From: a virus
Reading direction: 5' to 3' (one strand)
DNA length: 38,874 nt
IMG/VR virus record: IMGVR_UViG_3300017971_000144
Location: 1-38,874 of that record
Positions 31,592 through 35,964 of this stretch are shown one piece after another. The notes beneath the pieces are model-generated. The model was not told the DNA's origin. It made no database searches and saw only the letters and a program-made list of their open reading frames with translations. Position 1 is the first letter of the stretch, and each line of letters starts with the position of its first letter. The translations under genes were made by a program, and so were the position numbers.

Positions 31592-31668
31592 GGCCCTGTC
31601 GTCTAGTTGGTTAGGACGTTGCCCTTTCACGGCAAAAACAGTAGGTTCAAATCCTCTCAGGGTCGCCA
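31592..31668 (+). tRNA. tRNA-Glu (UUC)
   Basis: A complete cloverleaf. Acceptor GGCCCTG pairs with CAGGGTC (one G-T), the D arm is GTCTAG...GGAC, the anticodon stem TTGCC/GGCAA encloses CTTTCAC with anticodon TTC, and the T loop is GGTTCAAATCC with one mismatch in the stem. The 3' CCA is encoded. Order and D-arm resemble bacterial tRNA-Glu. It lies between the portal terminator and the leftward RuvC gene; it may support A-rich phage codons, since glutamate GAA is frequent. Confidence 0.92.
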
Positions 31669-33852: not shown

Positions 33853-33890
33853 CCCCCTAGTTTTTTTGTAATTTTTTCCTAGGGGGTTTT
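33853..33890 (+). terminator. Intrinsic terminator after the scaffold gene
   Basis: CCCCCTAG and CTAGGGGG form an 8-bp stem around an 18-base T-rich loop, followed by TTTT. It limits transcription from the scaffold gene into the capsid gene, so the leader beyond it probably has its own promoter, or read-through sets the ratio. Confidence 0.82.
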
Positions 33891-33922
33891 GCATCAGATA
33901 TTTAATGCGATATAAAATCAAA

Positions 33923-33999
33923 TTGGCAGTACGGGAATTCGCCAACCCACGAGCAGTATGGGCATCGCTCACCCAATAGGCTGTAGGGAATCGCCTCCC
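33923..33999 (+). ncRNA. Three tandem H-type pseudoknots in the capsid mRNA leader
   Basis: Three copies of a unit with period 26-27 bases. In each, an outer stem encloses a loop GGG that pairs with CCC just downstream. Unit 1: stem TTGGC (33923) / GCCAA (33941), GGG 33933, CCC 33946. Unit 2: GAGC (33951) / GCTC (33967), GGG 33960, CCC 33972. Unit 3: AGGC (33978) / GCCT (33993), GGG 33986, CCC 33997. The loops share GTA before GGG and AT.C after. The stems differ in sequence but keep pairing, which is internal covariation. It lies 115 bases before the capsid ATG. Confidence 0.72.
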
Positions 34000-34002
34000 C
34001 GT

Positions 34003-34114
34003 CGAACATTCGTTCGGTTGATAGTTACCTTATAACAAACCCCTAGCAGGAAAACAATGTAAATTGATATACATAAATAACATGCTAGCGAAAGGTTAAT
34101 TTTAGGAGATAGTA
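34003..34114 (+). promoter_or_regulatory. Rest of the structured capsid leader
   Basis: A hairpin CGAAC-attc-GTTCG at 34003-34016 follows the pseudoknots. CTAGCA at 34043 can pair with TGCTAG at 34083, enclosing an AT-rich loop. The ribosome site AGGAG lies at 34104. No promoter was identified with confidence in the leader. Confidence 0.5.
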
Positions 34115-34378
34115 ATGGCAATAACCACTACAACGATACTTCCGCCCCCAGTCCAGCAAAGCTTTAGCTATAAATTATTGTCGGTACCCGTTCCCTCAAT
34201 GATTCACAAGGTACCCGCGATGAAGAAAAGGATGCCGGCAAAAGGCGGTAATACTCTTCGTATGAGAAGATATAATGCACTTGATACTGCAATGGTACCA
34301 CTCGGCAACACCGGAATAACCCCTCCAGCTCAGACACTCACTGCGGTAGACATAGATGCTAAAGTAGATTTCTACGGT
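34115..34378 (+). CDS. Major capsid protein, exon 1 (codons 1-88)
   Basis: Start of the N4-gp56-type major capsid protein; strong site AGGAG and ATG. It encodes the N-arm and start of the E-loop region (AITTTTILPPPVQQSFSYKL, GGNTLRMRRYNALDTA) and ends in KVDFYG. The frame stops two codons later, inside the intron. The complete protein is join(34115..34378, 35085..35174, 35371..35964), 315 residues, which reads without interruption: DFYG-TYVELNEQ, then GVSLR-QTEDQLTRD. The exon end CTACGGT pairs with the intron guide to form P1. Confidence 0.93.
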
Positions 34379-35084
34379 TTCGCATAGGTGCCGTAGTAAA
34401 ACCCGTTCTGATTGCGAGGAACCCTAAACATATGTTATACTTGAGTGGTACATATATAAAAAGACATAGAAAGGATTACATATGCAAGGCAACTCGAGGG
34501 AAGATTTGATTTACTTCGCAGGTTTATTTGATGGTGAAGGTTCAATTATGATAGTGAGAAACGCTTCAGAGTCATTTATGAAAAACAGAAAGCATCCCCA
34601 TTACGGGCTAGTGTGTAGGATTGGAATGATAGATAAAGACTTAATATATCAATTCCATGCGGCTGTAGGATTAGGGTCTGTTTATGAAGAGAAACCTTAT
34701 CACCACAAGCGCGCTATAACGCGTTGGATGTGTAGAAGAGTTGACGAAGTACCTCTTTTTTTAGAAAAGATGATTCCATTTTTAAGGTCTAAGAAAAAAA
34801 ATGCATTATTAGCGCAGGAATTTATAAAAGAGTGTGTTGATAATCGAAGAAGAAAAATCAGCGAAGAAGTGCACAAAAAACAGCATGATTTTTATCTTAA
34901 GATGAGAATATTGAATGGAATAGTTGAATCGCCCGCAACGACTGAGCGAATGGGCAAGCGTGGTCGAGATAAAGGCATACGCTTGAAGCAACAGTCTGAT
35001 CTCATATGAAAGTATGAGAGAGAAATCCGAAGAGGTTTCTCCGCCAAGTAGAGAATATTTGGTCAGAAAAGTAACAGATTATTG
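34379..35084 (+). mobile_element. Group I intron 1 with homing endonuclease gene
   Basis: A 706-base intron in phase 0. The guide GCCGTAG (34390-34396) pairs with the exon end CTACGGT (34372-34378), including the U-G wobble that marks a group I 5' splice site. The guide continues 5' as ATAGGT, which pairs with the first six bases of exon 2, ACATAT, at five of six positions (P10). The intron ends in G at 35084. ATTGCGAGGAACCC (34414-34427) looks like the P4-P5 element; CTGATC (34996) and GGTCAG (35061) may form P7. The rest of the core is not resolved. The endonuclease gene fills most of it. Confidence 0.85.
34482..35009 (+). CDS. LAGLIDADG homing endonuclease inside capsid intron 1
   Basis: A 175-residue protein with AAAGGA before its ATG. 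One LAGLIDADG motif is seen near residue 12, YFAGLFDGEGSIMI, with the catalytic acid in DGEGS. The rest has the expected beta saddle (YGLVCRIGMIDKDLIYQF) and helical C-terminus. A single motif means it should act as a homodimer on a near-palindromic site in an intron-less capsid gene. It spreads the intron and may overlap the intron's 3' structural core with its last codons. Confidence 0.9.
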   Translation: MQGNSREDLIYFAGLFDGEGSIMIVRNASESFMKNRKHPHYGLVCRIGMIDKDLIYQFHAAVGLGSVYEEKPYHHKRAITRWMCRRVDEVPLFLEKMIPFLRSKKKNALLAQEFIKECVDNRRRKISEEVHKKQHDFYLKMRILNGIVESPATTERMGKRGRDKGIRLKQQSDLI

Positions 35085-35174
35085 ACATATGTTGAATTAA
35101 ACGAACAAGTGACTCTGCAGAGCCAAGATCCAACATTAAATGAAGCAGCGGCGAGATTAGGAGTTTCACTCCGT
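35085..35174 (+). CDS. Major capsid protein, exon 2 (30 codons between two introns)
   Basis: This exon is only 90 bases long and codes for TYVELNEQVTLQSQDPT, then LNEAAARLGVSLR. It starts with ACA after the intron-1 terminal G and ends with CGT. The residues are those of the N4-gp56 capsid family at this place (a Y-----E--TL--QDP-LNE pattern), joining DFYG before and QTEDQLTRD after. Gene finders would miss it because it is shorter than most limits and lies in a frame closed at both sides. Confidence 0.92.
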
Positions 35175-35370
35175 TAATTTGGCGGAGTATAAATTTCTGG
35201 TAATTGACTTGGAAGCCTAAGGCGATAGCTATGGCGACAAGGCGCAAGGGTAAAGCTAGCGTGAGAGACTAAACCCAGAAACCCGTAAGGGATGTGATAG
35301 TCCGAACAGCACGACGAAAGGTGCTGAGATGCACAGAAATGATGTATCCCCCGTAAGGGAGTAACAAATG
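35175..35370 (+). ncRNA. Group I intron 2, 196 nt, without ORF
   Basis: The full core can be drawn. P1: exon end CTCCGT (35169) with GCGGAG (35182), U-G at the splice site. P10: exon 3 CAAA with TTTG (35178). P3: TTTCTGG (35194) with CCAGAAA (35275). P7: GACTA (35267) with TAGTC (35298). P8: CCC-GTAA-GGG (35282-35291). P9: CAGCAC (35307) with GTGCTG (35321). A second CCC-GTAA-GGG lies at 35350. The intron ends in G at 35370. Both GUAA loops are of the GNRA kind that dock in group I cores. Confidence 0.93.
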
Positions 35371-35964
35371 CAAACCGAAGATCAGCTAACACGTGATATG
35401 TTGGCAGCAACCGCTGGTGCGATAAACTGCGTTGGCGGTAACAATGGTGACAACCCAACAAATATTGATCGGTCTGACGTTGATGACGTTGTTAGAACTC
35501 TTCTTTCGAACGATGCGTATACCGTAATGGATAACATCGAAGGTGAAGATAAGTTTGGCACCGGTCCTGTGCGTGATGCGTACTTTGCGCTGTGTTCAAC
35601 GCAGCTAACAGGTAACTTAGACGCTGTTGCTGGTTTCTTACATAAAAATCAGTATCCAGCTCCAATGAATGCATTAAGAACAGAGTGGGGTTCAATTGGT
35701 AACCTTAGGTTCTTAGTGTCGTCTATTGGTTCGATTACTGCAAATAGCTCTAACTTGGGTGCAGATGTCTATAATATTTTCTGCGTTGGTATGGAAGCAT
35801 ATGCTTGTATCGAGCAGGATCAGTATTCTGCGCACTTTATTTATCTGCCTCCTGAATATTCTGGGCCGTTAGCGCTTAACTGTACAGTTGGTTATAAGTT
35901 TGCAGAAGTGCCAAGAATTACAAACGATCTCTGGGTAATTAATCTACGTGCAACAAGAGCTTAA
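35371..35964 (+). CDS. Major capsid protein, exon 3 (codons 119-315)
   Basis: Begins QTEDQLTRDMLAATAGAINC and ends ITNDLWVINLRATRA before TAA. It contains the P-domain and A-domain of the N4-gp56 family (DDVVRTLLSNDAYTVMDN, VRDAYFALCSTQLTGNLDAV, LRTEWGSIGNLRFLVSS, YNIFCVGMEAYACIEQ). The ATG at 35368 that seems to open this frame is not a real start: it straddles the splice site, with only its G in the intron end, and no ribosome site precedes it. Without splicing the virion would lack a usable coat protein. Confidence 0.93.
   Translation, partial: QTEDQLTRDMLAATAGAINCVGGNNGDNPTNIDRSDVDDVVRTLLSNDAYTVMDNIEGEDKFGTGPVRDAYFALCSTQLTGNLDAVAGFLHKNQYPAPMNALRTEWGSIGNLRFLVSSIGSITANSSNLGADVYNIFCVGMEAYACIEQDQYSAHFIYLPPEYSGPLALNCTVGYKFAEVPRITNDLWVINLRATRA

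Follow-up and report, generated by a model that had tools for sequence, protein, structure and literature searches.

The window, that is, the whole 38,874-base IMG/VR virus record analysed here, carries a gene matching the major head protein family PHROG 1357 and, in the leader of this gene, three tandem minimal H-type pseudoknots, which were read from the sequence (33923-33999; Table 1). In every unit, a stem with a one-base bulge (S1) encloses a loop containing GGG, and a CCC placed just behind S1 pairs with this GGG (S2). All three pseudoknots had been proposed for the capsid leader in the first-pass annotation and are present. Of the layout given there, the stems and the GGG/CCC pairs stand, but the units start 28 and 27 nt apart and each S1 has an additional pair, formed by the G that follows the one-base bulge and the C that precedes the 3' arm. 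The motif GTA..GGG.AT..CGC has three matches in the 38,874-base record, all within the array, and none on the other strand; the reversed control gave none either. Nested RNA folding of the window gave no signal (z = 0.35), as expected for pseudoknots, because the GGG-CCC pairs cross S1 and such folding is blind to them. The structure of the array is close to certain, and its function is inferred.

The array lies between a terminator-like hairpin and the capsid start, as the first-pass annotation had placed it. The terminator-like hairpin upstream separates a putative scaffold gene from the capsid transcription unit; it was missed by a simple scan because its 8-bp stem has an 18-nt loop. It is followed by a sigma-70-like promoter candidate that predicts a +1 at about 33923, the first base of unit 1. 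This candidate is weak, with 8/12 matches, and falls below the threshold of a standard scan. Two group I-like introns appear to split the capsid gene (34379-35084 and 35175-35370), their limits resting on exon ends inferred by aligning relatives. The first contains an HNH endonuclease ORF (34482-35009, PHROG 5046) and, at 34884-35018, a group I match from Rfam that stays below threshold (27 bits). In many relatives, introns interrupt the same capsid gene at other points (e.g. L014, L051, L061). The phage genome also carries a tRNA-Glu (TTC) gene at window positions 31592-31668.

Table 1. Features of the capsid locus, in window positions
Feature	Position	Strand	Sequence, pairing or basis
Terminator-like hairpin	33853-33890	+	CCCCCTAG...CTAGGGGG-TTTT, read from sequence
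Sigma-70-like promoter candidate	33889-33918	+	TTGCAT 33889-33894, 16 nt, TATAAA 33911-33916
Alternative -10 of the promoter candidate	33913-33918	+	TAAAAT
Pseudoknot unit 1	33923-33948	+	TTGGC(A)G TAC GGG AATT CGCCAA CCC
Unit 1 pairing		+	S1 TTGGC(A)G/CGCCAA; S2 GGG 33933-33935 + CCC 33946-33948; sequence, family covariation
Pseudoknot unit 2	33951-33975	+	GAGC(A)G TA TGGG CAT CGCTC A CCCA
Unit 2 pairing		+	S1 GAGC(A)G/CGCTC; S2 TGGG 33959-33962 + CCCA 33972-33975; sequence, family covariation
Pseudoknot unit 3 (last)	33978-33999	+	AGGC(T)G TA GGG AAT CGCCT CCC
Unit 3 pairing		+	S1 AGGC(T)G/CGCCT; S2 GGG 33986-33988 + CCC 33997-33999; sequence, family covariation
Linker and capsid ribosome-binding site	34000-34114	+	TTTTAGGAGATAG
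Major capsid protein gene (PHROG 1357)	34115-35964	+	Three exons, by alignment to relatives
Capsid exons	34115-34378, 35085-35174, 35371-35964	+	Alignment to relatives

Relatives of the locus were collected by several routes: 80 came via the C-terminal exon of the window capsid gene and 80 via capsid alignment, while a motif pattern run on 2.9 million viral contigs gave 83 stretches and another pattern 61. Once duplicates were removed, 140 distinct leaders of the major-capsid family were compared. A strict descriptor found at least two units in 112 of them, whereas none of 140 mononucleotide-shuffled and none of 140 reverse-complemented leaders reached two units under the same descriptor. The set was partly fetched by motif, so this prevalence is not unbiased, and the leaders share descent, so that the counts are not independent. 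Arrays most often have three units and at most eight, and they were found down to 38% capsid identity (L196, 58%; L170, 49%; L175, 38%).

The units have a median length of 25 nt (22-29), with an S1 of 4-6 bp, a first loop (L1) of 2-6 nt that mostly begins with UA or CA, an S2 of 3-6 bp, an L2 of 1-4 nt with a terminal U and an L3 of 0-2 nt; the linkers between consecutive units are mostly short. Units diverge within one array, and S2 varies from unit to unit. Some positions are invariant beyond what pairing needs, namely the inner C-G and G-C, the A of UA/CA and the U before CG. This invariance is partly imposed by the extraction rule, and is prominent in a separate comparison of units too. 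The longest array (L200, 4589-4782) has eight tandem units with a 24-nt period, of which the first seven are nearly identical; it looks like a recent expansion of copy number.

For the analysis of S2, units were extracted by S1 and its conserved bases alone, without selection on S2, which avoids choosing units by their own pairing. (A free-descriptor search for S2 had given false units with long loops and was discarded in favour of this extraction.) The loop and the 3' tail were found to pair in a single fixed register, much more often than base composition predicts: with a loop length of 13, pairing was 0.81, 0.97, 0.91 and 0.88, against 0.39, 0.49, 0.60 and 0.37 from base composition. In 63 distinct fixed-length units of 26 nt, S1 was paired in 100% of cells, by selection, and S2 in 83%. 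The covariation score of these units was 0.599, compared with 0.219 +/- 0.016 after shuffling (0/500) and at most 0.160 when the partners were slid. Both sides of a pair had changed in 106 cells of S2, and in 143 across S1 and S2. A cruder swap test was concordant (mean S2 score 3.96 vs 1.89 +/- 0.14). An attempt to assign the strand from G-U versus A-C counts failed, with 23 of each in S2.

Bulged units, the kind present in the window, have S2 in the same register, with an excess over base composition, and bulged and unbulged units occur together in 11 arrays. Within the clade of the window itself, S2 hardly varies, being GGG/CCC almost throughout, so the evidence from S2 covariation comes from the wider family, by homology. 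A covariance model of the unbulged units, built without S2 because pseudoknots cannot be modelled, recovered relatives, including the one at 38% capsid identity. It did not pick out the bulged units of the window, whose link to the family therefore consists of their position and the 11 mixed arrays. Uncompensated changes in homologues, which would have refuted the structure, were looked for and did not prevail, given the proportion of paired S2 cells and the number changed on both sides; the structural claim is supported, whereas the functions suggested alongside it in the first-pass annotation were conjecture.

The array occurs almost exclusively before this capsid gene. The loci that had been fetched, about 2 Mb in all, were searched on both strands; 192 of 214 clusters of at least two units end no more than 250 nt upstream of a PHROG 1357 capsid gene on the same strand, and the other 22 are mostly capsid leaders interrupted by an early intron or truncated at a contig end. 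Among the pattern matches from the 2.9 million viral contigs, 71/81 precede the capsid gene and three more are capsid leaders at contig ends; most of those not before a capsid gene are chance matches in coding sequence. A loose pattern found no second array elsewhere in the same phages in 38 virus records. DNA similarity searches gave nothing useful, whether the window leader was compared with annotated phages or the array of a relative was searched, and neither did a comparison with plasmids.

Some observations bear on the possible hosts. A scan of 84,980 species gave a Parachlamydiaceae MAG (Chlamydiota) as its sole genome match, and capsid relatives were found in 8 of 232 genomes of that phylum; in five cases the contig measures 35-41 kb, roughly what a complete phage genome would take. 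The relatives concerned are L166/L295 and the MAG contigs G061:C388, G261:C102, G200:C1, G159:C19 and G179:C2. Capsid relatives on phage-sized MAG contigs are a hint that these phages may infect Chlamydiota, but the contigs may have been mis-binned, and this phylum was searched more sensitively than any other.

The position of the array relative to promoter-like sequences was compared across the family. Boxes resembling a -10 element peak 10-13 nt upstream of the first unit, with 47 matches at these four offsets against 44 in 40 control offsets, and such a box occurs at -20 to -9 of the first unit in 53/102 leaders, compared with 9/102 in a control interval. The -35 signal is weak (mean 3.04 of 6 vs 2.54 shuffled). 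The peak places the start of transcription on the first or second base of the array, which is thus predicted to be the 5' end of the capsid transcript; this start is inferred from -10 boxes only, without transcript data. Presence of the array also follows the length of the leader. Only 2/102 leaders of 120-500 nt had no unit by the descriptor, and both have units on reading, whereas no unit was found in 7/11 leaders shorter than 60 nt, where the capsid gene is close behind the upstream gene. Cultured distant relatives with short gaps have no array either (Bacillus phage Page, Paenibacillus phage API480, Pseudoalteromonas phage vB_Pun_Y3 and ct7QV12). As the array is usually absent at short gaps, it appears to accompany capsid genes that are transcribed as a separate unit. 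Members of the same family without an array, with the capsid directly behind the upstream gene, are L239, L240, L241, L251, L263, L275 and L296, the last having a capsid with 72% identity to that of the window.

Many relatives have a hairpin that starts with the S2 strand of the last unit and holds the Shine-Dalgarno sequence in its far arm. The arms are, for example, CTTAAG..CTTAAGGA, CTTGAAAG..TTTTCAAGGAG and CTTAGA..TCTAAGGA; some members of the clade to which the window belongs have CCCC..GGGGA. An anti-Shine-Dalgarno stem of at least 7 bp was found for the last unit in 55/115 leaders, against 5/218 for earlier units and 16.1 +/- 3.0 leaders after 3' parts were swapped between leaders. Taking the S2 strand out of the hairpin costs a median of 4.3 kcal/mol and raises the unpaired fraction of the Shine-Dalgarno sequence from 0.34 to 0.57 (control block, 0.35). 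The stacking of S2 amounts to -5.8 kcal/mol, leaving out loop costs, so the two folds are comparable in energy. The last pseudoknot and the Shine-Dalgarno hairpin are mutually exclusive in about half of the family. This pairing is not present in the window or in its closest relative (L004); the gate therefore belongs to the family and not to this window.

No known family accounts for the array. A search of the whole window against Rfam 15 gave only the tRNA at gathering score, the window array matched nothing at E up to 10, and four relatives (L200, L052, L059 and L165) had no match. Likewise, no matching description was found in the open-access literature, in line with the suspicion of the first-pass annotation that no named family has this layout; absence there and from Rfam is not proof. 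We would class the array as a new RNA family within a known kind, that of structured cis-acting leaders, without excluding an unnamed entry in a published catalogue of structured viral and phage RNAs.

Several known systems resemble it in part. Tandem short H-type pseudoknots in variable copy number are found in type III antitoxin RNAs (ToxI, AntiQ, CptI) and in phage pseudo-ToxI. ToxI units are 34-36 nt long and conserved in sequence within an array, and a terminator and the gene for an endoribonuclease toxin come after them, whereas the capsid-leader units are about 25 nt, divergent and compensating, and the array runs straight into the capsid ribosome-binding site. The mRNA of T4 gene 32 has an autoregulatory pseudoknot at its 5' end that is bound by gp32. 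It likewise concerns a heavily needed phage protein and translational control, the latter inferred here, but it is a single pseudoknot with gp32 as binder, while the capsid array has 2-8 units before a different gene and no known binder. Translational riboswitches such as those of the preQ1 and SAM-II type also contain pseudoknots. They share with about half of the leaders, though not the window, an exclusive choice between pairing of a pseudoknot strand and of the Shine-Dalgarno sequence; they differ in that the pseudoknot hides the Shine-Dalgarno sequence where that of the array frees it, and the array has no conserved ligand pocket that we could see, no metabolic tie and no Rfam match. Tobamovirus RNA carries three consecutive pseudoknots upstream of its tRNA-like end. 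The row of three small H-type pseudoknots is similar, but it lies in the 3' UTR of a plant RNA virus and is unrelated to the capsid array in sequence and place. The ompA leader has a 5'-terminal stem-loop that stabilises its mRNA. A structure at the predicted 5' end of the capsid mRNA is expected, as with ompA-type stem-loops, to block 5'-end-dependent decay (for the principle, see PMC3997798). Unlike the ompA leader, it is a pseudoknot array and not a simple hairpin, and stabilisation is only inferred.

We hypothesize, with a probability of roughly one half, that the array is a cis-acting 5'-terminal leader that protects the capsid mRNA and in many members gates its translation, a function inferred from the comparisons above. 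Bacterial mRNAs are stabilised by structures at the 5' end, since both RppH and RNase E require this end to be single-stranded (PMC3997798). The leader would form the 5' end of a dedicated capsid mRNA. With transcription predicted to start at, or within 1-2 nt of, the first unit, the 5' triphosphate end would abut a knotted helix; this block may slow 5'-end-dependent decay of the RppH/RNase E or RNase J type, and slower decay would keep a heavily used structural mRNA alive. In the half of the family with the gate, which does not include the window, a formed last pseudoknot would free the Shine-Dalgarno sequence and a melted one would hide it. Since the S2 strand is common to both folds, the folding of the array is inferred to be coupled to capsid translation. 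Against the leader reading, the promoter match in the window is weak, the gate is absent from the window and L004, and there are no transcript, start-site, half-life or probing data. One stable hairpin would, moreover, already suffice to block a 5' end, so the presence of 2-8 repeats whose inner C-G pairs, A and U are conserved points to a further role, for example with a bound partner.

A bound protein is indeed the strongest rival reading. A capsid, scaffold or other RNA-binding protein of phage or host could bind the repeats cooperatively and switch capsid translation off or on (autoregulation), acting through the Shine-Dalgarno hairpin where this is present. Similar units repeated up to eight times in variable number resemble binding sites, their tie to a single structural gene is strict, and the invariant C-G, G-C, A and U, though partly a product of extraction, exceed the needs of pairing. 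Nevertheless, no RNA-binding partner has been identified, S2 and most loop bases vary freely and leave few bases for recognition, and we know of no tailed-phage capsid protein that binds its own mRNA, which makes such an operator unlikely in our judgement, if worth keeping in mind. The mutual exclusion of two pairings of comparable energy would also suit a riboswitch-like sensor, with every unit a binding site for a small ligand or ion and the last one controlling access to the Shine-Dalgarno sequence, and some riboswitches do have tandem sensing units. We find this improbable, as each 25-nt unit has very few conserved unpaired bases and the array occurs only before a phage capsid gene, with no metabolic link and no Rfam match.

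Tandem H-type pseudoknots are a hallmark of ToxI, and the array might be a trans-acting decoy, comparable to ToxI or pseudo-ToxI, against a type III toxin of the host. Phage PhiTE evades ToxIN through expansion of pseudo-ToxI repeats (PMC3475682; PMC5086642), and the eight-unit array with seven nearly identical units has the appearance of such an expansion. The capsid-leader units are, however, about 25 nt and not 34-36 nt, they diverge within an array that no terminator and toxin gene follow, and they are fixed before the capsid gene, with the last coupled to its Shine-Dalgarno sequence. An antitoxin mimic is therefore very improbable. The repeats could, finally, act as DNA, as a cruciform or a packaging or replication signal. 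G-T and A-C cells are equally rare in S2, so base-pair statistics alone cannot say which strand or molecule folds. A DNA element can hardly be credited, though, since the array has a single orientation between a promoter-like box and a Shine-Dalgarno sequence, is usually absent where the capsid gene is directly behind the scaffold gene, and has in its last unit a Shine-Dalgarno coupling that is sensible only in RNA.

The finding adds to phage biology an apparently unnamed and well-supported family of structured RNA. This family is modular and very small, with units of about 25 nt, and a pseudoknot and a ribosome-site hairpin compete within it. We raise more tentatively the possibility that the modular 5' pseudoknot row is a new class of regulatory RNA that senses assembly, through free capsid, scaffold or portal protein, with the last knot opening or closing the Shine-Dalgarno sequence; if true, such an array would make shell production follow assembly. 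The unit is also a candidate part for synthetic mRNA stabilisers or switches. How tailed phages dose their major capsid protein is poorly known. The array offers a concrete, mutable element for this question, and nature already supplies an experimental series for it, running from 1 to 8 units, both with the Shine-Dalgarno gate and without it.
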